A stretch of DNA of 64,000 nucleotides, taken from positions 62,001 to 126,000 of the forward strand of contig NZ_AP012541.1 of NCBI RefSeq assembly GCF_000829035.1. The letters run 5' to 3'. Numbering within the stretch: position 1 is the stretch's first letter; every line of letters starts with the position of its first letter. Shown here in pieces: positions 11,567 to 26,660 of the stretch. A program made the translations under genes and the position numbers. The notes under the pieces are model-generated. The model saw only the letters and a list, made by a program, of their open reading frames with translations, was not told the DNA's origin and searched no databases. Source of the DNA: Lacticaseibacillus paracasei subsp. paracasei (GTDB lineage: Bacteria > Bacillota > Bacilli > Lactobacillales > Lactobacillaceae).

Positions 11567-12145
11567 ATGAACGGTAAACAACGAATGGCGGCGCAGTCTA
11601 GACAGTGGTTGGTTGATGCCTTGATTGAGTTGATGCAACGCGAAGATGTGGCTGATATCTCAATCACGGAAATCGTGCAGACAGCAGATCTTTCACGAAA
11701 GACTTTTTATCGGGCATTTAAAACCAAAGATGACTTAATCGATTATCTCTGTGCCCAATTGACGGAAGGCTATTTTGAAAGTTTGCAAAAAGCCACCCGC
11801 GATCAGGAACCGATTAGTTTTGAAACAACCATGGCAAATTTCTTCAACTTCTGGTGGCAGCAAAAAGACCTTGTTCGCTTATTGATTCGACAAGGTCTGT
11901 TTGATCGTTTGAACGGGGTTTGGCTGCAAGACGCGGTTGCTCACTACCGCGCGTTTCCTGCGCCTTGGCATGTCGCCGGTACCGATCAGGAAGTGAACTA
12001 CATCATGGCCTTTGCCCTCGGTGGCTTCACGAATATTCTGCGCGTCTGGCTGGCGCAGGATGAGCCAGAATTGCCAGAACAGGTGCAAAAGGGGGCGCTG
12101 GCTGGTTTTGGACAATTGGCGCGGAGCATTGGTGGGACGAATTAA
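11567..12145 (+). CDS. TetR-family transcriptional regulator
   Basis: The 192-residue protein has an N-terminal TetR helix-turn-helix, ISITEIVQTADLSRKTFYRAFKTKDDL (about residues 38-64), and a C-terminal ligand domain without known signature (TetR_C-type). The ATG at 11567 follows AAGGGG by 9 nt and is preferred over an upstream in-frame start. It is divergent from the DHA2 pump, which it probably represses until a ligand binds. Confidence 0.88.
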   Translation: MNGKQRMAAQSRQWLVDALIELMQREDVADISITEIVQTADLSRKTFYRAFKTKDDLIDYLCAQLTEGYFESLQKATRDQEPISFETTMANFFNFWWQQKDLVRLLIRQGLFDRLNGVWLQDAVAHYRAFPAPWHVAGTDQEVNYIMAFALGGFTNILRVWLAQDEPELPEQVQKGALAGFGQLARSIGGTN

Positions 12146-12266
12146 GTACTTAACCAATAGTTTAATAGCTGAACTAATTGCGTATAAGTCTTTGTGGACA
12201 GTATGATGGGCATACAAATTAAGCTAATATGAAAAACACACAAAGTTGAAGGAGTCCAACAAACTC

Positions 12267-12641
12267 ATGAAAGCTCTCATTTGCCTCATTCTAAATGCAC
12301 TTCCGTATGCCGGTATCGCACTGTTGTTAGATTACCAGTATATTTCTGACGGCCCTGTATTGATATACTTTTTGTTGCAATTAAGCATATCTCTATCAAT
12401 ATGCTTAATTATGAGGGAGGAGACAAAGAAGATGTGGCGCATACTGTTTTTCTCCCAGTTTTTATCATTGCTTCTAAATCTACTGACGTTATATGCTGGC
12501 AACCTGCCATTCTCAACCTACTTTAAACCATTTACTGTTTATGGCTGGTCTGTATTGACCCAAGTTTTTGGGCTACTGTTGCAGGCGATAACGGCCGGGC
12601 TTTTCATTTGGGTGAAAAGGGTTATTAAAGATAAAAATTAA
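12267..12641 (+). CDS. small integral membrane protein of unknown function
   Basis: The 124-residue protein is almost entirely hydrophobic, with four likely membrane helices (about residues 2-20, 29-47, 58-75 and 93-115) and basic ends (KRVIKDKN). AAGGAG is 13 nt upstream of the ATG; an in-frame TTG at 12246 is a less likely start. Its last 17 nt overlap the 3' end of the convergent secreted-protein gene. No family recognised. Confidence 0.6.
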   Translation: MKALICLILNALPYAGIALLLDYQYISDGPVLIYFLLQLSISLSICLIMREETKKMWRILFFSQFLSLLLNLLTLYAGNLPFSTYFKPFTVYGWSVLTQVFGLLLQAITAGLFIWVKRVIKDKN

Positions 12642-13347
12642 TTGGTAACGTTAAGTCAGAGTTGTCAAACGTGAAACCATTTTGAATGGCCTTTTCTCGA
12701 GGAACATCAATCAAAAAGTTGATAGTTTTCTCTTCATTCGACTTGATCATCGGAAGCGGTGACTGCGGCTGTAGCGCGACTTGTTGATTGTCTGAATAGG
12801 CAGTGAAATTTGTTGGGGAAAACGCCAGCGGAATGGCGTAATGATAGTTATGGAAAGTGAGCGAAATGCCGGTCTTATTTTGAGGTGTGTTAGGTAGATA
12901 CTTGGTTTGAATCGTAAATAGCAGTTGGCTGTTAGCGCCGTAATAAGTTACCTTGCTACCAATAGCAACTGGTTTTCGATAAACTGATCGGCGCGGAATT
13001 TCGTATGATTCAGGTAGAGGAATGATCTTTTTGCTAGTATGGCGGTGACGTGAAGTTTTCAAAATCAATTTTGTTGAGGTGGGTCGCAGTCGGTTTAAGC
13101 TCACCGTGCCCTTTTTAACCATCCCAGCAGCCAATTGATTGTTATTCAAATCTTTCAATGTATAGCTGGTATTTGGCTGGGCATGAAAGCTAAGTTTAAG
13201 GCCGTTATTGCCAGTCGTTACCTTTACTTTTTTCACGATAGACGGTTTCGTTTCATCCGTATTAGTCTTGGATAAGGCTGATTGTCGCGGCACTAAAACG
13301 AAGACGGTTAAAAAGCTAATTAGCAGAACTAACACGCGTTTTTTCAC
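12625..13347 (-). CDS. predicted secreted protein of unknown function
   Basis: The 240-residue product starts at a GTG with GAGGAGG 8 nt upstream. It begins KKRVLVLLISFLTVFVLVP, a signal peptide or anchor, followed by a beta-rich polar region with many Ser, Thr and Asn. The C-terminal part (TGISLTFHNYHYAIPLAF...) resembles an Ig-like or DUF4352-like fold by composition, but no family is certain. It is expected at the cell surface. It lies between a membrane protein and the ABC transporter locus. Confidence 0.65.
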   Translation of the reverse strand: MKKRVLVLLISFLTVFVLVPRQSALSKTNTDETKPSIVKKVKVTTGNNGLKLSFHAQPNTSYTLKDLNNNQLAAGMVKKGTVSLNRLRPTSTKLILKTSRHRHTSKKIIPLPESYEIPRRSVYRKPVAIGSKVTYYGANSQLLFTIQTKYLPNTPQNKTGISLTFHNYHYAIPLAFSPTNFTAYSDNQQVALQPQSPLPMIKSNEEKTINFLIDVPREKAIQNGFTFDNSDLTLPINFYL

Positions 13348-13547
13348 GACGGAGGCCTCCTCGATTTTTGTGGGTTTTAACGATAAACAGAGGGTGTGCA
13401 AAGGTTATACAGCGACTGGATTAATTATTAATAACTATATCATAAGGAAATTACGTTTTCTTGAATGGTTCAAATATGTGCCACCGTCAAAAAAACGTAC
13501 TAGACGTCATGAAAGCAACAGTCTAGTACGTTCCAGAAAAATAGCGA

Positions 13548-14780
13548 TCAGACCCGTTCAACACGACTGCTTTTAGTTGAATCTCTGAATGGATACCAAC
13601 TCGCAAAATTAAATGAACTGATTACCTCAACAAGCAACAAGATACCTGACCAAATCGCGATGACCAAAGCTCCTTGTCCCAGTTGTAATCCCGGCAAGTC
13701 CACGGACTGGGCAATCGTGCCATTCGCAATGCCCCACACATGAAAGAAACTCAGTGGCAACCAGCTAATTGGCGGGATCAGCAATGCGCTAGCCACCACG
13801 ATTAACACAATACTTGTCGTTAACCAAGCGTTTTTGGAGATGAGTGCCACGGCAATATTAAACGCTGCAACCAGTGCAATCAGAAGCAACAAGAGGCCTG
13901 CAGAGCGAATCAATAGTTGTCCCCTAGTTGTAAAAGTTTCAGAAAAGCTGTTGAAAGCATCCTGATAGGTGTTATTCAGGACGGGAAATTCCCAGCTGCC
14001 AAAACCGCGTAGCAAACCGGTAACTAATGTTGTTAACGACAGCGGTAGAAAAACAATCTCGGCTAAGGTCAAACTGATCGTTAAAAACTGCACCATCATC
14101 TGTTTGACCAGACCTTCACCTTGTAGCTGTAACCAATTTGAATGGGCGCGTTTATGAGCCAACTCTTTGGCAAAAAAACCACCTGAGACAATGATGCCGA
14201 TGAGTAGAAGGTAAAATGGCACGTTTTGCTGGAAAAGATATTGTAAATAGTCAAAGCCGCGGACATAAAAAGTAGGGAACCACTCACGCACAAGCTTCTC
14301 GGTCTCATCTGGCATCGCTTGTAATTCTTGATCCGTAAATAACAGCCCTTGCGGATAGTATGCAGTTATCTTGTGCTGTGCGAGGATTTCATTTTGCTGA
14401 TAGGTTCGATTGATCGCATCCAGATAATCTGGTTTTGCTGTGCCGTTTAGGATCGCAATTCGGTAATTGGCACCTTCGTTTTCTTTGGTAGCAGGCTCCT
14501 TACCACTGATAATTGGCAATTCTGCCGCGAACCATTGGTTATAGGCGGCTTGTGGTCCATTAAGTTTTTTGAACTCGGTTTTCAATGTTGCCGGTCCGTC
14601 CGCCTGATCAGCCCCTTGCTGAATTAACGCTTGGCGATACTTTTGAACAAATTCATTTTGGGCAGCCTGTTGTTGAAAGTTACCGAGAATGCCAACACCC
14701 GTCAAAACGGCAATAAACAGCCAAATCCACCAACGACGATTGCGCTTGGTAAATTCAAACTTTAGATAGTGAAAAAGCAT
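13548..14780 (-). CDS. ABC transporter permease, ABC-2 type, second subunit
   Basis: The 410-residue protein starts at 14780 (MLFHYLKFEF) with GGAGGTG upstream. A first helix near residues 17-33 is followed by about 150 outside residues and then five or six helices from about residue 180 onward. This is the build of permeases in peptide-export or immunity ABC transporters. It is the last gene of a unit with ATPase 16751-17437 and an IS-split permease, four nt after the latter's stop. Substrate unknown; the upstream gene for a small secreted protein suggests a peptide. Confidence 0.75.
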   Translation of the reverse strand: MLFHYLKFEFTKRNRRWWIWLFIAVLTGVGILGNFQQQAAQNEFVQKYRQALIQQGADQADGPATLKTEFKKLNGPQAAYNQWFAAELPIISGKEPATKENEGANYRIAILNGTAKPDYLDAINRTYQQNEILAQHKITAYYPQGLLFTDQELQAMPDETEKLVREWFPTFYVRGFDYLQYLFQQNVPFYLLLIGIIVSGGFFAKELAHKRAHSNWLQLQGEGLVKQMMVQFLTISLTLAEIVFLPLSLTTLVTGLLRGFGSWEFPVLNNTYQDAFNSFSETFTTRGQLLIRSAGLLLLLIALVAAFNIAVALISKNAWLTTSIVLIVVASALLIPPISWLPLSFFHVWGIANGTIAQSVDLPGLQLGQGALVIAIWSGILLLVEVISSFNFASWYPFRDSTKSSRVERV

Positions 14781-14784
14781 CAGA

Positions 14785-15423
14785 TCACCTCCGGATTTGG
14801 GCGGCAAACAGACAGAGAATTTGCCAAATAAAATAAATAAGGCCAAAGCGGACAACTGATCCAAGCAAGTTTTCTTGAAAGAGCGCCTTTAAAGATTGCG
14901 TGATATTAGTAGCGGTATTTTGCCAGCCATGATGACCGCTGATAAATGGTTGACCCCAGATCTTGCTAATAAGCAAGCTTAAACTTAATGCGATACCCAG
15001 CATCATGAACCATGTGAGTAAGGCAACCAGAAAGTTCATACCAAGCCATATCCAACTGTTGGGCTGATTTAACATAACCCACTCGTGTTGCTTGCCGAAC
15101 CAAGATAAGGTCCAAGTTGTTGACAAAATCATCACCATCAATAGAATGACCGACCAATGGCTCAACAGGACACTGAAGTCCGTTAAGAAAACTGCTGGTA
15201 AAGTAGAACTGCCATTAATTTCATAACCCTGATGAGTGGTTAATAGTTTTCGAAAAAGGGATGCTTGGTGATGATTGGCAATAAGATTGGTGCTAAAATC
15301 ATCTGGACTCAGTTTCTTGAGAATCTTTTCTTGATCAAACACTTTTAAGCTGGTCTTTAAATAGTTTCGATTATCACCTTGGGAAAAAGCCTGCTTTTGC
15401 TGCTCATATAAACTCGTCAGTTG
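14785..15423 (-). pseudogene. ABC transporter permease, 3' fragment (IS-disrupted)
   Basis: This encodes about 211 residues beginning LTSLYEQQKQAF, with three or four hydrophobic helices toward the C-terminus. It continues in frame from the fragment at 16475-16754 (...QHAKQ) once the IS30 element and one copy of the GTTG duplication are removed. The rebuilt permease is about 304 residues. The short in-frame start provided by the IS end has no ribosome-binding site. Loss of this subunit probably inactivates the transporter. Confidence 0.85.
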
Positions 15424-16474
15424 CCTAGATTGCAATAATAAAGTTACCACCTAGAAAGAGGCTTGCTCACTGCTTGAACTGGGGTTTGCCAACGGAGACA
15501 TTTTCTAGGTTTGTTATTGATAAGCGCTGTGGCTTGTTGAATATCGGTCTCTGAAACCTGATCAAACTGTGTTCCCTTCGGGAAATAGTAGCGAAGTTCT
15601 CGATTGAACCGTTCATTTGTGCCCCGTTCATTCGGGTGATAGGCGTGGCAAAAGTAAACCGGTATCCGATAGCGCTTTGTAAGCGCCTGATCGCAGGAAA
15701 ACTCTTTACCGTGATCAACCGTCACTGATCGAACCGGACCCGGAAAGTCCACCATCAGTCTTGCAAATCCCTTGAGAACAGCATTTTGTGATAAGTTTTC
15801 AAGCTTAGTTGTCGCCATTAAACGTGTCACCCGATCGACAATGGTCAAAACAGCAGCCTTTGACCCGCGACCACCGCGAACTGTATCCATCTCTAAATGT
15901 CCTTTTTCGGTTCGCCGATTAGCTGACTCACTGCGAATCTCAATTGAGGTGCCTACTGCTTGGTTATAGCGCGACCGAAGGTCTTGTCTTCTTTTATGAC
16001 GTTTACCGTGATCAAAGAGTTGGCTTGGCTGAAAATCGACTTGTCTTTGATAAATCCAGTGGTAAATCGTGTGTGGCGCACAGTGAACGGCATAACCGAC
16101 CATTTCAGGGGACCAACCTAGGTTTAGCTTCTCAGTTACCATCCGCTTCAACTTAGGCGTTAAAATCGAGTGCCGACCACAACGATGCCGACAAGTATCG
16201 GCATGATCCTGAGCTATAATGGCGCAGTAATCACCTTCAGGGCAACGGTGAAGCTCATGCCTAATAGAAATACGAGAGCGGCCTAAGGTCGCGGCGATGT
16301 ATTGAATCGTGTTGTGTTGCATCAGTTCTATCTGAGATCGTTCAATTAAGGTTATAATGGCCATGGGACCTGTCCTTCTCTCTAGATGGTATGTTATGCA
16401 AACACCATTTTAGCAAGAACGGACAGGTCTTTTTTCACATTTTCTGGGTGGTAACTTTAATTATGCAATCTAGG
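15424..16474 (-). mobile_element. IS30-family insertion sequence inside an ABC permease gene
   Basis: The element is 1051 bp. Terminal inverted repeats of about 34 bp start CCTAGATTGCA and share TAAAGTTACCACC and AGAAA, with four or five mismatches. It is flanked by the 4-bp direct repeat GTTG (15420-15423 and 16475-16478). It is a different element from the one in trpC: the transposase sequence and ends differ. Confidence 0.9.
15444..16364 (-). CDS. IS30-family transposase
   Basis: The 306-residue protein begins with a helix-turn-helix region (HNTIQYIAATLGRSRISIRHEL). It carries the DDE residues in LEMDTVRGGRG, VTVDHGKEF and NERFNRELRYYFPKG. It is complete and fills the element. It is only distantly similar to the transposase at 3532-4530. 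Confidence 0.95.
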   Translation of the reverse strand: MAIITLIERSQIELMQHNTIQYIAATLGRSRISIRHELHRCPEGDYCAIIAQDHADTCRHRCGRHSILTPKLKRMVTEKLNLGWSPEMVGYAVHCAPHTIYHWIYQRQVDFQPSQLFDHGKRHKRRQDLRSRYNQAVGTSIEIRSESANRRTEKGHLEMDTVRGGRGSKAAVLTIVDRVTRLMATTKLENLSQNAVLKGFARLMVDFPGPVRSVTVDHGKEFSCDQALTKRYRIPVYFCHAYHPNERGTNERFNRELRYYFPKGTQFDQVSETDIQQATALINNKPRKCLRWQTPVQAVSKPLSRW

Positions 16475-16754
16475 GTTGCTTGGCATGCTGCACTTTTTGC
16501 CTTGCTTGTGCCACGCTGACCGGATTTGTTTCATTTGGATGATTGGCAACGTAGATCCAACTGCCATTGGCTTGATGCAACGCGGTTTGTTTCGCCGTCA
16601 TCTGAGCGCGTATCGCTTCATGGGTTTGCTGCTGGCGAACGCTGCTTATTAAAAAGAAAGCAATCGCACCGATGACGGCAAGGCCGAGCGCCAAGCTCAG
16701 GACAAAGCTTGCCGCCAAACGCCGCCACTCTAAAACAAAGAGCGCTTGCTTCAT
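16475..16754 (-). pseudogene. ABC transporter permease, 5' fragment (IS-disrupted)
   Basis: The ATG at 16754 overlaps the ATPase stop as ATGA, so the two genes were translationally coupled. The fragment encodes 93 native residues: a hydrophobic helix near 15-37 and the start of an outside domain (HEAIRAQMTAKQTAL...). It ends at ...VQHAKQ where the IS30 element begins. The remainder is at 14785-15423. Confidence 0.85.
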
Positions 16755-17437
16755 ACTGTTGGTGCGAACAGCGCATTGTAGCGCGCTTCTGCTGAATCAT
16801 GCGGACCCAGTACTTCTTCATGAATCTGATGTCCTGTGATGAAGAAGTAGTGCTGAGTAACTTTCATTAATTCGTCCAAATTATGCGATGAAATTAAAAC
16901 CGTCACGTCTTGTTGGGCAAGATCAAGTAAGGCGTCGCGAACAAGTTGAAGACTAGTTGGATCCAATCCATTCAATGGCTCATCGAGTAAGAGGATTGTC
17001 GGTTTAACAACCAGCGCCATGATCAACAACAATCGTTGCTTCATACCTAACGAATACTTGCTCACCCGTTGGTTCAGAAAATCGACTGCCTGTAATTGCC
17101 CAGCGATAGTCGCAACTGCCTGTCGATCAAGTCGATGAACCGCCGTCAAAAAATCTAAATGTTGCTGTCCCGTCAAATATGGATAAAGGACTGAATTATC
17201 TTGAAGATAAGCAACTTTTTCAAAGACTAATTGACGATTTATTGATTTATCCAACAAGCGAATGATCCCTTTTTGAGGATGTAGCAAACCTGTGAGCAAA
17301 TTTAGTAGGGTCGTTTTGCCATAACCGTTAGGCGCAACTAGGCCATAAATACCGTCACTTTTTATCGCCATAGTAGTATTTTCAAAAATCGTTCTGCCAT
17401 GGAATTTAAACGATAAATCCCTGATGTCTAGAATCAC
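16751..17437 (-). CDS. ABC transporter ATP-binding protein
   Basis: The 228-residue ATPase has Walker A APNGYGKTT, signature YSLGMKQR and Walker B ILLLDEP followed by LNGLDPTS. The H-loop is ISSHNLDEL. The usual GPNGxGKS/T loop is slightly altered. It starts at GTG with GGAGGGG just upstream. It lies 78 nt downstream of the small secreted protein gene on the same strand and is followed by two permease genes, the first of which is IS-split. Likely role: energising export of, or immunity to, a peptide. Confidence 0.85.
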   Translation of the reverse strand: MILDIRDLSFKFHGRTIFENTTMAIKSDGIYGLVAPNGYGKTTLLNLLTGLLHPQKGIIRLLDKSINRQLVFEKVAYLQDNSVLYPYLTGQQHLDFLTAVHRLDRQAVATIAGQLQAVDFLNQRVSKYSLGMKQRLLLIMALVVKPTILLLDEPLNGLDPTSLQLVRDALLDLAQQDVTVLISSHNLDELMKVTQHYFFITGHQIHEEVLGPHDSAEARYNALFAPTV

Positions 17438-17515
17438 TGGAATCCCCTCCAAACACAACTCTGCTTGATGTTAACAGTAGCTCATTCCCCACTCAAGATC
17501 TAAAACAGAGATATC

Positions 17516-17830
17516 TTAGGCATAAATGTAACCTGAATATACGCCAGAGTAATTCCCACCCGTAAGTCCTTGAACCCGATCAAGGTATAGTACACCATGC
17601 ATGTAAGTACCATTGACAACCGCCGCGAAGGACGTGTTTTGATCAGGATAACGTTGATAGAAATTCTTGATATAGTTTGTGACTCTCGCCTTTGTTGGAG
17701 AAATAGTTGCTGTTTCCGTTGCTTGGGCGATTTGAGGTGTTGCTGAGAAAACGGCTGCCCCTGCGCCTGCCAGTGCAGTCGTTGTCATTAAAGCAATCAT
17801 TGCGTGTTTAATACTTTTCCCAAGATCCAT
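17516..17830 (-). CDS. small secreted protein, possible bacteriocin-like effector
   Basis: The 104-residue product has a clear Sec signal peptide (basic start, hydrophobic core ALMTTTALAGAGAAVF, probable cleavage after AQA). This leaves a mature part of about 67 residues without Cys, rich in Tyr, Gly, Thr and Asn, ending YSGVYSGYIYA. AGGAGG precedes the ATG. It sits between a short hydrophobic peptide ORF and the ABC transporter genes. Size and position recall lactococcin-972-like peptides encoded beside ABC transporters, but I see no decisive sequence match, so the activity is unknown. Confidence 0.65.
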   Translation of the reverse strand: MDLGKSIKHAMIALMTTTALAGAGAAVFSATPQIAQATETATISPTKARVTNYIKNFYQRYPDQNTSFAAVVNGTYMHGVLYLDRVQGLTGGNYSGVYSGYIYA

Positions 17831-18013
17831 GATTATATCCTCCTAACAATAAGAAATAGCAAGTAACTGTGGGGGATACGCTATTGTTAACACCAACTAG
17901 AATCAAATAAATTGAAATTTGATATTGATGTTTTCCCATTACTAATTTATTAGCCAGTATGGTTTCTGCACTTTAGTAAAATCGAGAAAATTGGAGGCGT
18001 CTGTTTTTTAAGT

Positions 18014-18082
18014 TCATACTCTCACAATGATTCTAATTCCTTGTACCAAGATAAAGGCACTTATCATGAGCGTTGTAGTCAT
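18014..18082 (-). CDS. candidate short hydrophobic signalling peptide (SHP-like), 22 residues
   Basis: The ATG at 18082 follows GGGAGG by 8 nt, an excellent ribosome-binding site. The 22-residue peptide begins MTTTLMISAFILV and ends GIRIIVRV. Streptococcal SHP pheromones are similar: 20-30 residues, hydrophobic, with an Ile/Val-rich C-terminus, and encoded beside and divergent from an Rgg regulator. Here rgg lies divergently 130 bp away, with a perfect 30-bp palindrome overlapping the -35 region of this ORF. The N-terminus lacks the usual Lys residues, so the pheromone role is a hypothesis. Confidence 0.5.
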   Translation of the reverse strand: MTTTLMISAFILVQGIRIIVRV

Positions 18083-18124
18083 CGCCATTACCTCCCTGTG
18101 TTAGTATTAATGTAAATATACCCC

Positions 18125-18170
18125 ATTATAAATTCGCAGCGCTTTAATATGACATTTGTCATATTAAAGC
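18125..18170 (-). promoter_or_regulatory. promoter of the peptide ORF overlapped by a 30-bp perfect palindrome (likely Rgg operator)
   Basis: Positions 18141-18170 are a perfect inverted repeat with 13-bp arms GCTTTAATATGAC / GTCATATTAAAGC and a 4-nt spacer. On the minus strand a consensus TATAAT lies at 18125-18130, 18 nt from TGTCAT (18149-18154). The weak -35 therefore falls inside the palindrome, as expected for a regulator-dependent promoter. The divergent rgg ATG is 41 bp on the other side. Confidence 0.7.
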
Positions 18171-18211
18171 GTATACACATTTTCTTTCAATCCATAGAGA
18201 GGCTGTGATGA

Positions 18212-19102
18212 ATGATGCAAGACCCTAACATCGGTTCATACTTTCGTGAAATACGCAAACGAAGAAATTTACGAATAGAGGAAATACGCGGAAACTTGCA
18301 CCAATCCACTATTTCTCATTTTGAACGAGATCATGACGACATTACACTTCGTAACCTGCTTCAGATCCTCGAACCAACGTTCACAACACCTGAAGAGTTT
18401 TGCTTGCTTGTTGATGATCAAGATAGTTCAATCAACAGTATTCTCAAGAAAATTTCTGAACACTATGACAAACTGGATATTGATGGGTTAAAACATTTTT
18501 TAGCCGTTTTTAAGCGTTCAAACGCTATGACTCTCCCCGTTCGTTTAATCATCCTTATTGTTCAAAGCTGCTTGAATGAATTATCGGGAGAAAATCTTCT
18601 TCTCTCAAATGAAGACTGTGACTATGTACAGGATTATCCTCTTCAATCTGGTAAATGGTTCAGTTTCGAATATATTGTTTTTGGCAATCTTGCCCAATCA
18701 CTACCTGCTTCAGTCAATTTGCGGCTTTGGAAAAAGATGCTGACATCTTTTGATGAATTTCACTTGCCCACCTATGACGATTTACTCGTCAATATCTTGT
18801 ATAACGTTTCTGCCTCGTTTTTGAGTCAAAACGATTTGGCTTCGGCCACATACCTTACCGAGTCTCTTGATTTATCAAAATTAGATCATTACGTTCTTTA
18901 TGTGCGACATCATGTTGTTTTTTTGAAATTACTTTTGAAGTATCGGCAGGACCCAAAAGATTTGCAAAATATCGATCGTTTCAGAACCTTTCTTTTGGGC
19001 ACACAGATGGTTGATGAAACACTCTTTGACAAAAATATTGACGCCTTAAAGGCACTGGATGTTGACATTGATGTCATCTTGTCACCCGAAAGTGGCGTGT
19101 AA
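18212..19102 (+). CDS. Rgg/GadR/MutR-family transcriptional regulator
   Basis: The 296-residue protein has an N-terminal XRE-type helix-turn-helix (GSYFREIRKRRNLRIEEI...HQSTISHFERDHDDI). An all-helical C-terminal region of about 220 residues follows, the length and layout of Rgg regulators whose C-terminal repeat domain binds a peptide. GAGAGG lies 9 nt before the ATG. It is divergent from the 22-residue hydrophobic peptide ORF and has its own promoter region across the 30-bp palindrome. It probably controls the peptide, the small secreted protein and the ABC genes. Confidence 0.8.
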   Translation: MMQDPNIGSYFREIRKRRNLRIEEIRGNLHQSTISHFERDHDDITLRNLLQILEPTFTTPEEFCLLVDDQDSSINSILKKISEHYDKLDIDGLKHFLAVFKRSNAMTLPVRLIILIVQSCLNELSGENLLLSNEDCDYVQDYPLQSGKWFSFEYIVFGNLAQSLPASVNLRLWKKMLTSFDEFHLPTYDDLLVNILYNVSASFLSQNDLASATYLTESLDLSKLDHYVLYVRHHVVFLKLLLKYRQDPKDLQNIDRFRTFLLGTQMVDETLFDKNIDALKALDVDIDVILSPESGV

Positions 19103-19184
19103 CGGTTTCCCAGAAGTGTTACGTTGTATAAAAATGTTGCGCATGCCCTCTAGCTTGAATTACTTGTGCAAGAGAATGCAAAAA

Positions 19185-19219
19185 GCGCAACTTCATGTTG
19201 GCACTGAAGTTGCGCTGTG
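19185..19219. terminator. terminator between convergent rgg and pemK
   Basis: Perfect 11-bp stem GCGCAACTTCA (19185-19195) / TGAAGTTGCGC (19205-19215), with A-rich and T-rich flanks. It can serve both convergent genes. Confidence 0.75.
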
Positions 19220-19276
19220 TTTCTGATCCGAGTGTGAGTTGTTCATGATGAAATCAGCTACTTGAAAAACCTTTCG

Positions 19277-19675
19277 CTAGTTAAAGAGATCAGTGGCAGC
19301 CTGCTTAAGCTCTTTCACCAAAGAGGACTTGGCATGGCCCACTACTTCAAGATGGCAAGCGGCGGCATCATAAGTTGGTAACTGCCAAAGGACGATATTC
19401 CCTTTAACGCAGCTCTCGAAGTCAGCAAAAGGTTTTAACATTTCGTTCATGAAGTTATCTGATGAAGTCATGAACATACCAATGACCATTCCTGTTGCCT
19501 CGTTATAATCGTCATTTGATAGAACAATGAGTGGTCGCCGAATGTTGCCGTTATTGAAATTGTGACCTCCGTATTCTTTACCTAAATGCGGTTCAGCATC
19601 AACGAAAACAATGTCACCTTGTTTTGGCGTGTTCTGGTCATACTTCTTTACCTCTTGATGACTCTTCAGAAACAA
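19277..19675 (-). CDS. pemK: PemK/MazF-family mRNA-cleaving toxin
   Basis: The 132-residue protein has the MazF-fold start PKQGDIVFVDAEPHLGKEYGG, then RRPLIVLSNDDYN and MFMTSSDNF, and ends in a helix typical of PemK/MazF endoribonucleases. No ATG is available at the right place. A TTG at 19675 inside the antitoxin gene is the best start, giving a 38-nt overlap with pemI. Toxin translation would then be coupled to the antitoxin. Confidence in the family is high, in the exact start moderate. Confidence 0.88.
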   Translation of the reverse strand: MFLKSHQEVKKYDQNTPKQGDIVFVDAEPHLGKEYGGHNFNNGNIRRPLIVLSNDDYNEATGMVIGMFMTSSDNFMNEMLKPFADFESCVKGNIVLWQLPTYDAAACHLEVVGHAKSSLVKELKQAATDLFN

Positions 19676-19907
19676 TTCCGATCTCTTTTTTCATTGCTTT
19701 AAAATCAATCTTTTGAATAGCTTTCGTGTGCCACGGGTTAATTCGTTGTGGCTCATACTTTAACGTACCCTCATCATCAACCAGTAAAAGGTATTCTTGC
19801 CCCTCGTTAACGCCAGCATCGGCAGGTACTGTTAAACTTAGCGAGTTGCCAGATCGTCTAGTGGTAAAACGACCTAGTACGCGATCATGACGCTTCTTTG
19901 TATCCAT
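19638..19907 (-). CDS. pemI: PemI/MazE-like antitoxin
   Basis: The 89-residue protein contains an AbrB-like swapped-hairpin start (GRFTTRRSGNSLSLTVPADAG), as in MazE/PemI DNA-binding antitoxins. An acidic, flexible C-terminal part, which in this family wraps around the toxin, follows. It precedes and overlaps pemK. The pair is chromosomal and lies between the Rgg locus and dapB; it probably represses its own promoter. Confidence 0.85.
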   Translation of the reverse strand: MDTKKRHDRVLGRFTTRRSGNSLSLTVPADAGVNEGQEYLLLVDDEGTLKYEPQRINPWHTKAIQKIDFKAMKKEIGIVSEESSRGKEV

Positions 19908-20027
19908 TAAGATCCCTCCCGTAAGTACAAGTATATACGGACGTGTAAATGACCTTACGATTAACCATGGTTACTGATTTGGTGATTTATCAAAAATCCA
20001 GACACGAACGATTGGCCATACAGAAAT

Positions 20028-20056
20028 AAAAAAACGCGCTGATGTGCGCGTCTTTT
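20028..20056 (-). terminator. terminator of the dap arm
   Basis: ACGCGC (20034-20039) and GCGCGT (20046-20051) form a stem just after the dapB stop. On the minus strand a run of seven T follows. Confidence 0.75.
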
Positions 20057-20824
20057 CTATAAAAAGTTCTCCAACCCAACAACCAATTCATCAGCCGTTT
20101 GTACCTTACTAATCGCGACTGCGACGCCTTGCATGAAGCTTTGGCGCTCGAAGGAGTCTTGGCGGATGGTGAGGGCTTCACCAGGGCCGCCGAAGAGGAC
20201 TTGTTCGTGGGCAATGTAGCCGGGTAGGCGAACGGCGTGGATCGGGACGTCATCGACACGTTGGCCGCGGGCGTCATTGTCGATGGTTGGCAATGGCTTT
20301 TGGGTACGTCCGGCGGCGATTTTGTGGGCGGTGGCGATGGCGGTGCCAGAAGGGGCATCGGCTTTGTCCTGATGATGCATTTCGATGATCTCGGCATCAG
20401 GGAAGTAGGCAGCAGCTGCTTGCGCAAATTTCATCAAAAGAACGGCTGAGAGGCCGAAGTTCGGGGCGATCAAGCCACCAAGATGTTTGGCGTTAGCAAG
20501 TTTGATCAGTCGTTCCTGATTGGCAGGGTCCATGCCGCTGGTGCCGACGATTGGATGGATGCCGGCATTGATGGCAGCTTCAATGTTGGCAGCAACGGCG
20601 CTGGGATTGGTGAAGTCGACCCAGACATCTGCCACGTGTGCATGAAGCTGGTCATAGGTGTTGAGTACTTGCACGTTGGCAGGCAAGTTGTAACTTTCTG
20701 GATTAAGATCGGTGATTTTAGGGTCGAAAACGGCACTTAATGCGAAGTCTTGATGTGACTGAACCATTTTGACTGTTTTCTGACCCATGGCACCACGAAA
20801 ACCGGCAACAAGAACCTGAATCAT
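20057..20824 (-). CDS. dapB: 4-hydroxy-tetrahydrodipicolinate reductase
   Basis: DapB reduces hydroxy-tetrahydrodipicolinate with NAD(P)H in lysine and cell-wall diaminopimelate synthesis. The 255-residue protein starts with the nucleotide-binding GFRGAMGQ, has VDFTNPSA and VGTSG in the middle and the catalytic EMHHQDKADAPSGTA region. The usual length is about 250-270. Its ATG overlaps the dapA stop as ATGA. Last gene of the operon, followed by a terminator. Confidence 0.95.
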   Translation of the reverse strand: MIQVLVAGFRGAMGQKTVKMVQSHQDFALSAVFDPKITDLNPESYNLPANVQVLNTYDQLHAHVADVWVDFTNPSAVAANIEAAINAGIHPIVGTSGMDPANQERLIKLANAKHLGGLIAPNFGLSAVLLMKFAQAAAAYFPDAEIIEMHHQDKADAPSGTAIATAHKIAAGRTQKPLPTIDNDARGQRVDDVPIHAVRLPGYIAHEQVLFGGPGEALTIRQDSFERQSFMQGVAVAISKVQTADELVVGLENFL

Positions 20825-21726
20825 GCGAGCACCTCCGCTTCAATGGCTGATAGTTCTGGCACGCCCAGTAGATGGGCGAGTTCCTGCTGTTGGCTGGCGT
20901 TCAGGGGTAGTAACGGCAAACGTGGGCTGCCGACTTGAAAGCCTAGCGCATTGAGTGCAGCTTTGGTTGGCGCAGGGGATGGGAAATGGAATAGAGCCGC
21001 CATTTTTGGCAACAGTTGACGTTGCAAGGCGGCGACTGTGGTGATGTCGCCACGATCGAGTGCGGCGTACATTTCACGGATACTGTGGGCGTAAAGATGG
21101 GCTGCAACGGAAATGACTCCCATCCCACCGAGTGTCTTGATGTTGAGTGCCTGAGCGTCTTCGCCTGTCCAAACGTTGAAAGCGTCGTGCTTGGTACGGT
21201 CAATGATGTCACTCAAGGCAGGGAGGCTGCCGCATTGCTTGATGCCTTGAATCATGGGATTTTGCGCCAGTGTCGCAACGGTTGCTGGTAACATATCAAC
21301 ACCGGTGCGGCCTGGAATGTTGTAAATGACGATCGGCTTCTGCGCCGCTGCAGCAACGGCTGTGTAATGGGCGATCATACCGTTTTGATCTGGCTTGTTG
21401 TAATAAGGGACAACAACCAAGGTGGCATCAATACCGGCAATGCCGCCAACTTCATGAGTGAAGGCGGCGGTTTCTTTGGTGTTGTTAGAACCAGAATTAG
21501 CAATCACAAGTGCGCGGCCATGAACCATATCGGCGAAGCGGGTATAAAGCGTGATTTTTTCTGGATGACTGAGTGTTGGTCCCTCGCCGGTGGTAGCACC
21601 GACGACAAAACCGTCAGTACCTTCTGCGATTAAATGATCGACAAGTCGCTGCATGACGCCATAGTCAATTTCGTCGCGATCATTGAATGGCGTCACAATC
21701 GCGGTGATCAGTTCTGCTTTTTGCAT
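20821..21726 (-). CDS. dapA: 4-hydroxy-tetrahydrodipicolinate synthase
   Basis: DapA condenses pyruvate with aspartate semialdehyde through a Schiff-base lysine. The 301-residue protein shows GATTGEGPTLSHPEK, VPYYNKPDQNGM with the catalytic Tyr, YNIPGRTG and the Lys region GIKQCG. AGGAGG precedes the ATG. Between it and dapL lie a palindromic repeat and a 1566-bp insertion sequence. It may therefore be cut off from the L-box promoter and rely on read-through or a local promoter. Confidence 0.95.
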   Translation of the reverse strand: MQKAELITAIVTPFNDRDEIDYGVMQRLVDHLIAEGTDGFVVGATTGEGPTLSHPEKITLYTRFADMVHGRALVIANSGSNNTKETAAFTHEVGGIAGIDATLVVVPYYNKPDQNGMIAHYTAVAAAAQKPIVIYNIPGRTGVDMLPATVATLAQNPMIQGIKQCGSLPALSDIIDRTKHDAFNVWTGEDAQALNIKTLGGMGVISVAAHLYAHSIREMYAALDRGDITTVAALQRQLLPKMAALFHFPSPAPTKAALNALGFQVGSPRLPLLPLNASQQQELAHLLGVPELSAIEAEVLA

Positions 21727-21741
21727 GATGACCCTCCTATA

Positions 21742-21832
21742 AACGCGCTACCCAGTCCAGAAACCTACACATAAGGACCTTGGCCGCAATGGCCACTTAT
21801 GTTCCGGTTTCTACCCGCGCCAGTTCGCGCTC
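21742..21832. repeat. palindromic repeat family A, copy upstream of dapA
   Basis: A 91-bp palindrome whose arms are CCAGAAACCTACACATAAGG and its near-complement CACTTATGTTCCGGTTTCT, and whose outer part CGCGCCAGTTCGCGCTC matches the copies at 5915, 26984 and the half-copy at 2857. It lies in the dapA leader, 15 bp from the ATG, and 12 bp from the target duplication of the IS. Confidence 0.75.
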
Positions 21833-21847
21833 TGTCTTAATGTAACT

Positions 21848-23413
21848 AGTGGCTGGTGAATTAGGTAACATTCCGGCTACCTGAAACGTGAATTTGATAG
21901 TGAATTAAGATGGATTCCTGCTTATATTTTACAAAAATCAAAATTGGTCCATTAAAAAGCCTTAATAGCATCTTTAGATTGGCTAGATTGATCGCAATAT
22001 CAATCGTCACTGCGATGCTGGCTACCGTTTTAGTCCGCACCAATGAAAGGCCCAAAGGGCCTTTCATGAAGGCAAAACCGCGTTCAATTTTCCCGCGCCG
22101 CTTCTCTGCGTCACGATCAACTTGCCGCTGCTTAGCATCCATCTTTTTAGGCTTACGTCCTAAACGTGGTCCCGACAACCTAATGCCTAGTCGTTGACAG
22201 AGCTGACGATTCTCGCGGGTACGATAAAGTGTGTCAGCTAAGATTTCATCGGGATAATAACCATGCACGTCGAAATAATGATCGATGGTTGTTGCTAAAT
22301 CTTGGCTTTCATTGAACGCCTTAAAATCAAATCGTTCGATATCGATCATGCCATCGGCAATTGAAGCATCAATCTTGGGACCAAATTCGGTTCGTTGTTT
22401 GGCTTTACCACGGTTAATCGGGCGAATCCACGGTTGTGCCAAGCTAACAATCCGTCCTGGGACCCGATGGGTCCGATTTTCATACATGAACATTTGCTGG
22501 TCAAGAAGTTCACGAATCACAGCCAATCGTTTGGTTTGCCTTTCGTTAAGAGAGGCACCGTGGGCCAACAGCACATCGATATAACGTAGATCACGTCGGA
22601 CATACTGGAGCTGTACTTTGATCTGCTTGCGTGTTTCCTTAGCCCAACGCCGCGGTTTTCTAGCAAAAGCGGTCCACTTAGCTTTTGCTTCACGTTTGTA
22701 GGTTCGTGGAGGCTTGATTTGCAACTGATGAGCCATGTCTAATAACATTTCTTCTAGATTGAGCCGAGCTTGATTTAGCAGCGAAGTATCTTGTGGAAAA
22801 CGAATTTCAATTGGCACCGCAGTAGCGTCTGTGATCAAGACACGGAGCTCATCATCTGGCAATAAACTTTGGATTTGTTCGCGCAAGGTATCACTGATGA
22901 TATTTCGCACTAGTTCCGTTATTTGACCCATGCGTCGTCTAAAATAAACCAAGGTTGAGTGGTTGAACGGCAGGTCGGTTGTGTAGGTGTCTAGCCCGAT
23001 AAAGTACTGGTAAGCCGGGGTATCACGAATAGCGGTAACGACCGAACGGTCGGTTAGATGTTCTGCTTGCTTGATCAAACTGGCACCGTAAAGCAGACGA
23101 AAGGGTTTAGCAGCGCGCCCACCCATCTCAGTAAAAAGAAGTTGATAGGCTTCATCGAGCTGTTGCCACGGGAGCATGTCGGCTAATTGAACCCACTCAT
23201 TGTCGGAAGAAAGTGGCACACCAAGGCCGTTGTTAAAGGATTGAAATGACAATTGGGTAGCACGATGTCGATAAGCCATGATGGTTTCCTCCAGGAAAAA
23301 TAAAAAGTGCAAGGAAAACAGGGGTTAGCCCATGTTTACTTTGCACTAATTATAATCTTTACTATTCTTTGATGCCAATAAAGCTTGCAGTTATGCTGCT
23401 TTCACCAGCCACT
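21848..23413 (-). mobile_element. IS5-type insertion sequence between dapL and dapA
   Basis: The element is 1566 bp, bounded by the inverted repeat AGTGGCTGGTGAA at 21848-21860 and its complement at 23401-23413. It is flanked by the direct repeat AACT (21844-21847 and 23414-23417). The transposase is codirectional with the dap genes. Family (IS5 or IS1182) is judged from the transposase motifs only. Confidence 0.85.
21861..23279 (-). CDS. IS5/IS1182-type DDE transposase
   Basis: The 472-residue protein starts MAYRHRATQLSFQSF. An N-terminal DUF772-like region contains LPFNHSTLVYFRRRMG. Acidic residues fitting the DDE triad lie in LITDATAVP, PDEILADTLYRTREN and EKRRGKIERGFAFMKG. It is full length and looks functional. 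The ATG at 23279 has an upstream GGAGG and is preferred over an earlier in-frame Met. Confidence 0.85.
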   Translation of the reverse strand: MAYRHRATQLSFQSFNNGLGVPLSSDNEWVQLADMLPWQQLDEAYQLLFTEMGGRAAKPFRLLYGASLIKQAEHLTDRSVVTAIRDTPAYQYFIGLDTYTTDLPFNHSTLVYFRRRMGQITELVRNIISDTLREQIQSLLPDDELRVLITDATAVPIEIRFPQDTSLLNQARLNLEEMLLDMAHQLQIKPPRTYKREAKAKWTAFARKPRRWAKETRKQIKVQLQYVRRDLRYIDVLLAHGASLNERQTKRLAVIRELLDQQMFMYENRTHRVPGRIVSLAQPWIRPINRGKAKQRTEFGPKIDASIADGMIDIERFDFKAFNESQDLATTIDHYFDVHGYYPDEILADTLYRTRENRQLCQRLGIRLSGPRLGRKPKKMDAKQRQVDRDAEKRRGKIERGFAFMKGPLGLSLVRTKTVASIAVTIDIAINLANLKMLLRLFNGPILIFVKYKQESILIHYQIHVSGSRNVT

Positions 23414-23439
23414 AACTACTAATGATAATTTGTGCTGGC

Positions 23440-24591
23440 TTACACTTTTTCAAGCATTCGATGTTCAAGAAAGTGCACAACGGCGGTGACACCGGGCACG
23501 AGTGCGGCTTCGTCAGGTGAAAAGTCGGCTGCATGTAGTTGTGAGTCAGGGTCATTGACGCCTAGCCAGAACATGGTGCCAGGAATCTTATTTAATAGGT
23601 AGCCAAAATCCTCACCTGTCATGACAGGCTTTGTATCAACAAATGTCACGTCAGGATCATCTTTCATCACTTGAATAAAGTCTTTGGTGAGTTTGTCATT
23701 ATTTTCAACGGGATAGTAGCCGCCTTGGTTCAAGGCAACTTTGACTTGGCAGTTAAAACTGGCGGCAATGCCTTGACCGATGTCACGGATTCGTTGTTGC
23801 AGAAAGTCAATCTGCTGCTGGGTGAAACCGCGTAAAGTGCCTTCGAGATGCGCCCTGCCAGCAATGACATTGCGGATCGTACCTGCGCGCATCAAGCCAA
23901 AAGTAATCACGGCGCTGTCGGTTGGTCCGACATTACGGGCAACGACCGTTTGAATCTGACTGATGAAGCTTGCCGCCGCGACGATCATGTCATTGGCATT
24001 TTGCGGCAAGGCAGCATGACCGCTTTTGCCGATGAGGTCAACGTTGATTTCGGTTGTGCCGGCAAAAAGGGTGCCGAGGCGTGTGCTGATCGTCCCAGCC
24101 GGTAGATCTGGGCGATCATGCAGGCCATAAAACTCATCAATGTGCCAATCGCCGGTGAATGCGCCCATATCGTAGGCGAGCTTGCCGCCATTTTTACTTT
24201 CCTCGGCTGGTTGGAAGAAAAAGATGAGGTTATCTTTTGGTTGATGTTCAGCAAAATAACTGAGGATGCCGAGGGCGACAGTCATGTGGATATCATGTCC
24301 GCAAGCGTGCGCGATGCCGGAATGCTTAGAGGCAAATGGCAACCCGGTTTTTTCGGTAACCGGTAACGCATCGATATCGGTCCGATAGCCAATCGTACGC
24401 TGCGGATCGCGCCCTTGGACCTTGACGAGTAAAGCGGTTGGCAGGTCTGGCAAGGTGCGGATGGTGAGATATGTTTGGGGCAGCCCTTGAATGGTTTTTA
24501 GCAATAAGGCGTGCGTTTCTTTTTCCTGCAAGGCTAGTTCGGGGATTTGATGGAGTTGGCGGCGAAGGGTGATGAGGTCAGCTTCCTTCAT
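23440..24591 (-). CDS. dapL: N-acetyldiaminopimelate deacetylase
   Basis: The 383-residue M20-family metallopeptidase shows RRQLHQIPEL at the start, GYRTDIDALPV, the metal-binding HACGHDIHM and the EES motif of the active site (FFQPAEESKNGG). In the acetylase branch of lysine synthesis it removes acetate from N-acetyl-diaminopimelate. The start at 24591 (MKEADLITL) is 7 nt after the dapD stop. It is assigned to this step rather than to a generic amidohydrolase because of its place after dapD. The aminotransferase of the same branch is not in the window. Confidence 0.9.
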   Translation of the reverse strand: MKEADLITLRRQLHQIPELALQEKETHALLLKTIQGLPQTYLTIRTLPDLPTALLVKVQGRDPQRTIGYRTDIDALPVTEKTGLPFASKHSGIAHACGHDIHMTVALGILSYFAEHQPKDNLIFFFQPAEESKNGGKLAYDMGAFTGDWHIDEFYGLHDRPDLPAGTISTRLGTLFAGTTEINVDLIGKSGHAALPQNANDMIVAAASFISQIQTVVARNVGPTDSAVITFGLMRAGTIRNVIAGRAHLEGTLRGFTQQQIDFLQQRIRDIGQGIAASFNCQVKVALNQGGYYPVENNDKLTKDFIQVMKDDPDVTFVDTKPVMTGEDFGYLLNKIPGTMFWLGVNDPDSQLHAADFSPDEAALVPGVTAVVHFLEHRMLEKV

Positions 24592-24598
24592 TAATAAG

Positions 24599-25303
24599 TC
24601 ACAGCTTTCTGAGTTCGTCGAGTAGGACGGTTTTGGCTTCGGTTTGGTCATTCACTTGTTTGATGACTTTCGCAGGAACACCAGCGACTACGGTGTGCGC
24701 GGGAACATCGTTAATGACAACCGCGCCAGCAGCAATAACCGCGCCTTCACCGACTGTGGTGCCTTCGAGGACAACGGCATTGGCGCCGATCATGACGTGA
24801 TCACCAATCGTGACGGGCTTAGCTGAAGGTGGCTCCACAACCCCGGCGAGCACGGTGCCAGCGCCGATATGGCAGTGCTTGCCGACGATTGCCCGGCCAC
24901 CAAGGACCGCTCCCATGTCAATCATGGTGCCAGCACCGATTTCTGCACCAATGTTGATAATCGCGCCCATCATGATCACCGCATTGTCGCCAATAAGCAC
25001 CTGATCACGAATAATGGCGCCAGGTTCAATGCGCGCATTAGCCGCCTTGATATCCAGCAATGGAACCCCGGTGTTGCGGCCGGCGGTTTCAACATAATAG
25101 TCATCTAACTTGGCTTTTTTCAAAATGGGTTTAATTTCTGCCCAGTCGCCAATCACGGTGCCGGTATGTTTACCGATGAAAGCATGAACGCTTTTGGGGA
25201 AATGCAGCTCGCTTAGTTTGCCCTTGAGATAAACCTTAACTGGGGTGGTTTTTTTGCTATTAGCGATGGTGGAAATAATTTTTTGAGTATCTAACTGTGC
25301 CAT
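24599..25303 (-). CDS. dapD: 2,3,4,5-tetrahydropyridine-2,6-dicarboxylate N-acetyltransferase
   Basis: The 234-residue protein is a left-handed beta-helix acyltransferase with hexapeptide repeats ([16 protein letters not shown]..., [36 protein letters not shown]). The N-terminal part has the DapH-type sequence [12 protein letters not shown]. The length of about 235 marks the acetyl-using form (also called DapH) rather than the succinyl-using DapD. AGGAGG lies upstream of the ATG at 25303, and lysA ends 10 nt before. Confidence 0.93.
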
Positions 25304-25313
25304 AATCGGCCTC

Positions 25314-26660
25314 CTATTTGGTTGCGGCAGTGGCGTCGGTTTGAGCTGGAGCAGGCTGCTCAGTTGGTGCGGCGTAATGTAAGTCATTTTTAATGAGATC
25401 AGCATCGGTTTCGCGGGTCACGACCAACTGGGCTTGGCCATTTTCCACGAAAACAACGGCGGGTCGCGGATTGCGATTGTAGTTGGATGCCATTGAGTAG
25501 CCGTATGCGCCAGTGTCAAAAACAACAACGACATCGCCTGATGTGGTGGTGGGCAGCGGTGCATCATCGATCAAAATATCGCCGGATTCGCAATACTTGC
25601 CGACCAAGTGGACATGTTCAGCTGGCGCAGCATTTGGCTGGTCGGCTAAAACGGCCGTGTAGGTTGCTTGATACAAGGCGGGACGAATATTGTCGCCCAT
25701 GCCGCCGTCAACGGCAACGTATGGCCGCAATCCCGGGACATCTTTACGGCTGCCAACGGTATAGAGACTGTAGCCGGCCGGCCCGACAATCGAACGGCCG
25801 GGTTCAATCCAGATGGCTGGTAACGGCCAGTTAAGCGTTTGACTTTGTGATTTCAAGGTTGCCAGAATTGCCTTAACAAAGGCTTCTGGTGGCAGCGGAT
25901 CGTCTTGCTTGGTATAAGCAATGCCGAAGCCGCCGCCAACGTTCAGGACTTTGGGGATGAAGCCGAATTGCTGATGCCAGTTATTAAGGACATGCAGCAG
26001 CTTTTGGGTAACGGCTTCGAAGCCTGCCACTTCAAAGATCTGGGAGCCAATGTGGGCGTGGATGCCAAGCAGGTTGAGATGATCGTCGGCTAAAATGCGC
26101 TTGGCGGCTTCATCTGCTTGACCACTAGCGAGATCGAAACCGAATTTACTGTCGGTTTGGCCTGTCTGGTCATAGGCATGTGTGTGCGCGCTGATACCAG
26201 GGGCGACACGGATTAAAACGTCCTGTTGACCAACGGTGGCACCTAAAAGGTCATCAAGGAGATCCAGTTCGTGAAAATTGTCCACAATGATGGTGCCAAC
26301 CCCGGCATCCAATGCTTGTGTCAGTTCAGCTTTGCTTTTGTTGTTGCCATGAAAACTGACCGCCGCCGTTGGAAAGTCGGCTGCCTGAGCGGTGTAAAGT
26401 TCACCGCCGGACACCACGTCAACGTGCGCGCCTTCTGACTTGGCGACTTCGTACATCGCAATGGTCGCAAAGGCTTTGGAGGCATAACTGACGGCATATG
26501 ACACATCTGCTTCTTCAAAAACACGTTTAAATGCGCGAATTTGCTGGCGAATGGCGCCAACATCGTACACATAAAGTGGGGTTTGAAATGTTCGGGCCAA
26601 CTGGCTGGCAGCGACCCCGCCGATGGTTAACTGGCCTTCATGATTTGTGGCAAAATCCAT
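25314..26660 (-). CDS. lysA: diaminopimelate decarboxylase
   Basis: LysA makes lysine from meso-diaminopimelate with PLP. The 448-residue protein has the PLP lysine in [14 protein letters not shown], the glycine-rich phosphate loop NVGGGFG, the EPGRS motif and CESGD with the catalytic Cys. The ATG at 26660 has GGGAGG upstream. First gene of the operon, directly after an L-box riboswitch, which fits its place as the step that makes lysine. Confidence 0.95.

Follow-up and report, generated by a model that had tools for sequence, protein, structure and literature searches.

Does a short reading frame lying opposite an Rgg-type regulator gene in Lacticaseibacillus code for the peptide signal of that regulator, and does the pair control the genes that follow it? 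We have addressed this question for a locus in a 64,000-nucleotide stretch of DNA, referred to here as the window, which covers positions 62,001-126,000 of contig NZ_AP012541.1 (G000:C1:62001-126000) in a genome of 3.02 Mb. The locus consists of an rgg gene, a divergent 22-codon open reading frame (ORF), an inverted repeat between the two, and a series of minus-strand genes for a 104-residue secreted-type protein and an ATP-binding cassette (ABC) transporter, and the original prediction had read it as a circuit of an Rgg regulator and a short hydrophobic peptide (SHP). Our answer, which we give with moderate confidence, is that the locus is probably a one-component peptide switch of the RRNPP type, based on Rgg proteins of a Lacticaseibacillus clade, with the 22-codon ORF as the signal and the minus-strand operon as the target. 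If this is true, a genus used in foods and probiotics would have a peptide-signalling switch of its own, whose operator is defined, and comparing its paralogs would reveal how receptor and operator are retained even as the signal gene is turned over. What is more, the locus contributes a 22-codon gene missing from the annotation, together with an orphan secreted protein of 104 residues. Coordinates throughout are window positions; G000 is the source genome, while G049, G277 (L. zeae) and G335 are compared genomes of the same genus, and as one genome per species was compared, conservation here means conservation between species.

The regulator and its clade

The gene that was predicted to code for an Rgg-type regulator is an open frame of 296 residues, and its product is a true member of the Rgg family. 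Namely, it matches Rgg_C (PF21259) with E=1.9e-14 and 54.2 bits (cut-off 27), TIGR01716 with 64.8 bits (cut-off 36.9) and HTH_3 with 27.5 bits (cut-off 23). An AlphaFold2 model calculated from an alignment of nine clade members reached a mean predicted local distance difference test score (pLDDT) of 77.3 and a predicted template modelling score (pTM) of 0.63. When the PDB was searched with this fold, Rgg144 was the best match, with a template modelling (TM) score of 0.65, followed by Rgg2, NrpR and Rgg3, while PrgX and ComR scored lower; ComR appeared first at rank 43 (5juf, TM 0.27) and is absent from the 9 sequence matches.

Close relatives of this regulator are found mostly in its own genus. 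A search of the Lactobacillaceae (397 genomes) gave matches at E<=1e-20 in 9, of which 8, counting G000, belong to the genus of the window; among the 30 genomes searched in that genus, 10 gave one at E<=1e-15, and with a profile of the clade 5 of 395 genomes of the order, all from this genus, matched at E<=1e-28. The clade discussed here is made up of the ten best Rgg matches in the genus search and was chosen before the tree was built. From 72 distinct Rgg frames, 68 were kept for comparing loci (four were dropped for short upstream DNA or truncated frames), and the tree holds 71 Rgg proteins, one fragment having been left out, together with four streptococcal receptors, RopB not being in the tree. 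The ten closest proteins form one branch (support 99/96), in which the window Rgg is sister to an ortholog in G049 with 72% identity (100/99). The rgg gene of G335 is likewise open, with a frame of 300 residues, the stops flagged in its match falling where this match extends beyond the frame. Rgg2 and Rgg3, Rgg144 and NrpR all fall outside the clade, although the deep branches of the tree are long and weak; NrpR, itself on a long branch apart from the clade, shares with it one half of the tree that has little support (29/84). We also considered that the locus might be of mobile origin and dropped this idea, because no close Rgg was found among plasmids, phages or viral contigs: a single distant Vagococcus plasmid matched at 20% identity, and phages gave zero matches.

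The inverted repeat as an operator

The strongest part of the case is the evidence for an operator. The repeat had been described as a perfect 30-bp palindrome at 18141-18170; its two arms of 15 bp are indeed fully complementary, with the correction that they are separated by a 2-nucleotide centre, TT, and run over 18140-18154 and 18157-18171. Among the five inverted repeats listed for the whole 64-kb window (seed 12, length at least 13, gap of at most 40 nucleotides), it is the only one that is 100% complementary with arms longer than 13 nucleotides. As predicted, it overlaps the -35 region of the likely promoter of the 22-codon ORF, and it overlaps that of the likely rgg promoter as well. 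This geometry would fit autorepression combined with an activator-dependent divergent promoter.

In four whole genomes we searched for the core AATATGA-N6-TCATATT, allowing one mismatch. The exact core occurs in five places: G000 and G049 have two each and G277 has one, while G335 has none. Each of the five lies directly upstream of an rgg gene from the clade of ten. Counted over the clade, five loci have the exact core, two have it with two mismatches and one with three, while at the remaining two, with four and five mismatches, no site is credible. In other words, a core with at most two mismatches is found at 7 of the 10 clade loci and at 0 of the 58 other Rgg loci, none of which comes below three, and such a core was reached in 0.9% of 1000 resampled clade regions. 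On these grounds the palindrome is very likely the operator of the Rgg clade, to which the regulator would bind.

Six further places differ from the core by one mismatch; G000 has three of them, G049 two and G335 one, and all but G000:2302585 were viewed. A regulon that extends to such sites was considered as a possibility. A site in G049 lies about 60 nucleotides upstream of a frame for a 463-residue membrane protein, and the one in G335 lies about 30 nucleotides upstream of a 242-residue frame. As a separate observation, the source genome has a second Rgg paralog, at C1:413.6 kb, where the operator core is exact and no pheromone ORF is evident, and cross-talk between it and the window locus is possible.

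The 22-codon frame as a pheromone candidate

The divergent ORF is present as had been predicted, with an excellent ribosome-binding site, GGGAGGT, 7 nucleotides before its ATG. Its product, MTTTLMISAFILVQGIRIIVRV, is hydrophobic over most of its length, with a mean Kyte-Doolittle value of 1.6, and contains neither Lys nor Asp/Glu; its last nine residues, QGIRIIVRV, have a mean hydropathy of 1.0 and include two Arg and no terminal Gly. We looked for comparable frames at all loci by strict criteria, namely an ATG start, 16-28 residues, at least six bases of Shine-Dalgarno match and a mean hydropathy of at least 1.5, both these and a looser set of thresholds having been fixed after the candidates were seen. 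A strict divergent ORF of this kind occurs at 3 of the 10 clade loci and at none of the 58 others, as against a resampled mean of 0.006. For the region upstream of the window rgg by itself, such an ORF arose in 0.04% (0.0004) of 5000 first-order Markov resamplings, a figure to be read with the post hoc thresholds in mind. Under the looser criteria a frame in L. zeae, though less convincing, joins the three and brings the clade count to 4 of 10 (P=0.004).

The three strict ORFs code for 19-22 residues and begin 63, 67 and 53 nucleotides from the operator. Besides that of the window they are MTVLLSILVPLGGRVIAGG, from a second clade locus in G049 and one or two codons longer if earlier starts are used, and MLEMAIGMFYHLAGIIIVCG, from G335. 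A third clade locus in G049 has MPDLTEILNDTYPVGDDVIIVPG, read from a GTG start, with an end like that of streptococcal SHPs; it fails both the strict and the looser tests. A search for still smaller frames, hydrophobic ATG ORFs of 4-14 residues with a ribosome-binding site, found none at the window locus and, among the ten clade loci, only a frame of 6 codons at the G049 ortholog. Taken together, these features suggest that the 22-codon ORF is on balance somewhat likelier to be the pheromone of the adjacent Rgg than to be something else.

At G049:C1:2.366 Mb, a 23-residue ORF with a GTG start lies opposite a 34% Rgg paralog and is followed by a gene for a secreted-type protein of 186 residues. 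The ORF ends in DDVIIVPG, which resembles an SHP end more closely than does the end of the window candidate.

Proposed mechanism and its alternatives

In the mechanism that we favour, a dimer of the Rgg protein would sit on the inverted repeat, where it would cover the -35 elements of both promoters, its own and the opposite one, the latter element being poor. The minus-strand transcript would begin with the 22-codon ORF, whose product would be exported and trimmed to a short hydrophobic C-terminal peptide, then taken up again through an oligopeptide permease to bind Rgg. The complex of Rgg and peptide would in turn switch on the operon, that is, the precursor gene itself, the gene of the 104-residue secreted protein, the ABC ATPase and the permeases. 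The DNA itself supplies the family and fold of the regulator, the repeat with its conservation in the clade, its overlap with both likely promoters, the ORF led by a ribosome-binding site, and, for transport, genes of an EcsB/PptB-like exporter and of oligopeptide-binding proteins; we infer from these the binding of Rgg, the translation, export and binding of the peptide, and activation rather than relief of repression. For the export and import genes of G000 the result concerns presence only: EcsB is matched with 345.8 bits, and there are eight SBP_bac_5 matches over the cut-off, two of which are neighbouring pieces. The output of the operon would most likely be a bacteriocin-like or cell-surface function.

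Several observations weigh against this mechanism. Starting with the promoters, the consensus scan lists neither of the two likely ones, that of rgg (TATACA) because the scan accepts only -10 elements that end in T. What it picks up on the minus strand is TTGAAA-18-TAATAT (18190-18161), a site that has its -10 inside the operator and would suit repression; if this promoter is used, Rgg would be a repressor relieved by the peptide, and for this reason we have slightly lowered our confidence. The scan gave 3 sites in the region, compared with 2.8 expected from shuffling. The control for the operator search, a reversed pattern, had a single match over the four genomes, in G049. As for the peptide, ORFs by the looser criteria number 6 over all 68 Rgg loci, with 4.27 expected, which is about chance; as the clade count is above it, the signal from these ORFs is confined to the clade of ten, six members of which have no candidate even under the looser criteria. 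When compared with the other candidates, the window peptide shows no detectable similarity (shuffle p 0.12, 0.15 and 0.22), and it lacks the marks of an SHP. What is more, in the G049 ortholog (72%) the operator is retained and neither the 22-codon ORF nor the 104-residue gene is present, the operator being followed by the ABC ATPase; at the same spot there is just a 6-codon ORF, MLLILA, with a weaker ribosome-binding site, GGTGA, which could be a leaderless signal peptide or a chance frame. The expected conservation of the short ORF beside rgg thus holds in part, similar frames standing at a similar place in some relatives and being missing in the closest one.

This pattern makes room for an account, in our estimate rather unlikely, in which Rgg and operator are real and the 22-codon ORF is not the signal, the regulator being stand-alone or MutR-like, or answering a peptide coded elsewhere (for example near G000:C1:413.6 kb), and directly controlling the secreted-protein and ABC operon. 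The closest ortholog, with operator and ABC genes and no ORF, would be explained in this way, as would the paralogs in G000 and G277 that carry the exact core with no candidate ORF beside it; some rgg genes, moreover, are reported to have no adjacent peptide gene (PMC12445099). What such an account leaves aside is that the window ORF has a strong ribosome-binding site, has two clade counterparts at nearly the same distance from the operator and seldom arises in resampled sequence. That same resampling value, 0.0004, though with thresholds fixed post hoc, makes it very improbable that the ORF is a chance frame in the leader region, the view that its absence from the nearest ortholog and its lack of similarity to other candidates would suggest. 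Only a little less improbable, in our judgement, is that the ORF is translated and acts as a small membrane peptide, for instance one that partners the secreted protein or gives immunity to it, or else as a leader peptide. Its hydrophobicity over most of its length speaks for such a role, as does the next gene in three paralogous loci of 50-51%, which by eye resembles one for a small membrane protein; its length and place, on the other hand, match clade candidates with more SHP-like ends (DDVIIVPG, GIIIVCG), and no terminator-like hairpin was found in 17400-18300.

With the peptide-switch mechanism retained, the original prediction of an Rgg/SHP circuit stands as far as the true Rgg, its streptococcal-like fold, the clade operator and the SHP-sized hydrophobic ORFs beside some clade members are concerned, and does not stand as regards membership of an SHP/Rgg group or presence in the closest ortholog. 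A wider proposal, which we put forward tentatively and would rather bet against than for, is that Lacticaseibacillus has its own class of Rgg-peptide circuits, in which the regulator clade and the operator are kept and the pheromone gene, placed between operator and output genes, is repeatedly replaced, shortened or lost, leaving each species with a private signal or a deaf switch; the Arg-containing, Lys-free and acid-free peptide of the window would then be a new type of signal.

Relation to known systems

In Streptococcus pyogenes, shp2 and shp3 are unannotated ORFs of 22 and 23 residues opposite rgg2 and rgg3 (PMC3150281), and SHPs predicted in the salivarius group have 20-26 residues, an N-terminal Lys and a hydrophobic end, often with Gly and Asp/Glu (PMC12445099). 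The window locus resembles the streptococcal SHP/Rgg systems (Rgg2/Rgg3; groups I-III) in its Rgg receptor, its unannotated opposite-strand ORF in the range of 22-23 residues (PMC3150281) and perhaps the hydrophobic C-terminus of the product, and again in that Rgg3 acts at the shp promoters. With its 22 residues and its ribosome-binding site the ORF lies within the 20-26 residues expected of an SHP gene, while by the other criteria of the same report it differs, having no N-terminal Lys, no Asp/Glu and no C-terminal Gly (PMC12445099); it was rejected as a typical SHP on this composition. The receptor, moreover, is on a branch separate from Rgg2/Rgg3 and Rgg144. SHPs are exported by PptAB (PMC5167397), and of the machinery that these systems require, PptAB and an oligopeptide permease, G000 has EcsB and SBP_bac_5 genes.

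A second relation is with RopB and its leaderless communication peptides (LCPs). In Limosilactobacillus reuteri a RopB-type regulator is divergent from the gene of an 8-residue peptide and from ABC transporter genes, as described in 2023, and the synthetic peptide induces the transporter; systems of this type were found in Lactobacillaceae among other families (PMC10518010). The window locus shares with that of L. reuteri the divergent regulator, the tiny hydrophobic peptide gene upstream of ABC genes and a palindromic operator, and the half-site from S. salivarius, ATGTAACATATT, has CATATT in common with the window operator (PMC10518010). It differs in the length of its ORF, 22 residues versus 8-10 for most LCPs (PMC10518010), for which reason the ORF was rejected as a typical LCP, and perhaps in its receptor, in that NrpR, which we infer to be of the LCP type, falls outside the window clade. 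The view that such circuits are little described in lactobacilli is therefore partly outdated, and because a divergent RopB-peptide-ABC circuit is known in L. reuteri, we regard the window circuit as a variant and not as a new kind. From its sequence, the locus would be classed with neither the streptococcal SHP/Rgg nor the RopB/LCP systems and would work like both.

MutRS and other Rgg-type regulators are linked to bacteriocins. With these the window has in common an Rgg-family regulator adjoining genes for a small secreted protein and an ABC transporter, and a clade member in L. zeae adjoins a double-glycine bacteriocin-like gene; this likeness rests on gene layout. Another count puts six Lactobacillaceae gene clusters under candidate RRNPP control (PMC10075063). 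In L. paracasei HD1.7, possibly the same species, rgg2, rgg3 and rgg4 were measured by quantitative polymerase chain reaction and proposed for quorum sensing (PMC12346395). The signal proposed there differs, being the SigX-inducing peptide (XIP) coded by comS, and the term SHP is absent from the main text (PMC12346395). We found no paper joining Rgg, SHP and Lacticaseibacillus and, going by titles and the beginnings of abstracts, none on this locus among the papers listed, in literature coverage that mostly leaves out subscription journals.

The minus-strand genes and their surroundings

The features of the locus are collected in Table 1. The predicted 104-residue protein with a signal peptide is there, preceded by GGAGG, the signal peptide being a by-eye call. 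No Pfam or NCBIfam model matched it over the cut-off and PADLOC gave no match at E<=0.001, so that it was dropped as a known bacteriocin; plasmids gave no match either. Matches at E<=0.01 came from 13 of 397 Lactobacillaceae genomes: one is G000 (E=3.2e-65), the other 12 are weak (E>=0.001), and those of the weak matches that were aligned look by eye like signal-peptide or chance similarity. Its single-sequence model is unusable (pLDDT 48.4).

Table 1. Features of the locus in window coordinates.
Feature	Position	Strand	Evidence
rgg-type regulator gene, 296 residues, helix-turn-helix and Rgg C-terminal domain	18212-19102	+	Pfam, NCBIfam, AlphaFold2 model
Likely operator (putative Rgg binding), 15-bp inverted repeat, 2-nucleotide centre; core AATATGA-N6-TCATATT at 18146-18165	18140-18171	.	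sequence
Likely rgg promoter, ATGACA (18149-18154), 17-nucleotide spacer, TATACA (18172-18177); -35 within operator	18149-18177	+	sequence
Likely -10 TATAAT of 22-codon ORF; -35 place 17 nucleotides upstream, GTCATA 18148-18153, poor, in operator	18125-18130	-	sequence
Alternative promoter-like site TTGAAA-18-TAATAT, -10 in operator	18161-18190	-	consensus scan, 9/12 matches
Ribosome-binding site GGGAGGT	18090-18096	-	sequence
Hydrophobic 22-residue ORF MTTTLMISAFILVQGIRIIVRV, candidate pheromone precursor	18014-18082	-	sequence; translation and function putative
104-residue protein, signal-peptide-like N-terminus, no known family	17516-17830	-	ORF list, family searches
ATPase gene of ABC transporter; listed start TTG, true start possibly internal	16751-17458	-	PF00005
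First permease gene, 5' piece	16470-16754	-	by-eye match to N-terminus of intact 304-residue G049 frame
IS30-type element inside permease gene, transposase 15444-16364, ends approximate by several bases	15426-16472	-	PF00665
First permease gene, 3' piece; first listed codons are the element's end	14785-15450	-	match to rest of G049 frame, by eye and blastn
Second permease-like gene, start uncertain	13548-14864	-	438-residue G049 counterpart at same place; blastn match 13705-15376
Secreted-type protein, end of putative operon	12625-13401	-	234-residue G049 counterpart at same place; no family found (Pfam, NCBIfam)

Of the ABC genes placed on the same strand by the original prediction, that of the ATPase is intact (PF00005, E=3.5e-26; the best NCBIfam model, TIGR03740 for lantibiotic protection, scores 153.9 bits, below its cut-off of 309.75), and the first permease gene is split by an element of the IS30 type of insertion sequence. 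We judge this gene to be cut because its G049 counterpart is an intact frame of 304 residues, and the transporter is probably impaired in this genome. The transposase matches PF00665 with E=2.9e-9, the near-identical ends of the element were read by eye, and its right end matches many L. paracasei plasmids. No known structured RNA was found at gathering scores in 12000-26000.

The operon would have a small secreted protein and an ABC transporter as its output, perhaps bacteriocin-like, as the L. zeae clade member next to a double-glycine bacteriocin-like gene suggests. The locus in question, L029:7615-7998 in G277, has two small ORFs with double-glycine-type leaders (ISGG and ITGG) and an ABC ATPase opposite a 36% Rgg paralog. 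One of the two ORFs matches Bacteriocin_IIc (PF10439) with E=5.5e-5 and 23.5 bits, below the cut-off of 27.1, and the other has no family; it looks like a two-peptide bacteriocin locus under a clade Rgg.

Directly after rgg, on the minus strand at 19277-19907, there is a PemK/MazF-like toxin gene (PF02452, E=2e-10), with an 89-residue ORF that has no Pfam match upstream of it; this is a variable spot, as G049 has a different frame there. Farther on, 21861-23312 holds a transposase gene (DDE_Tnp_1_2, DUF772), flanked by what we take to be the lysine/diaminopimelate gene dapA and a deacetylase gene.

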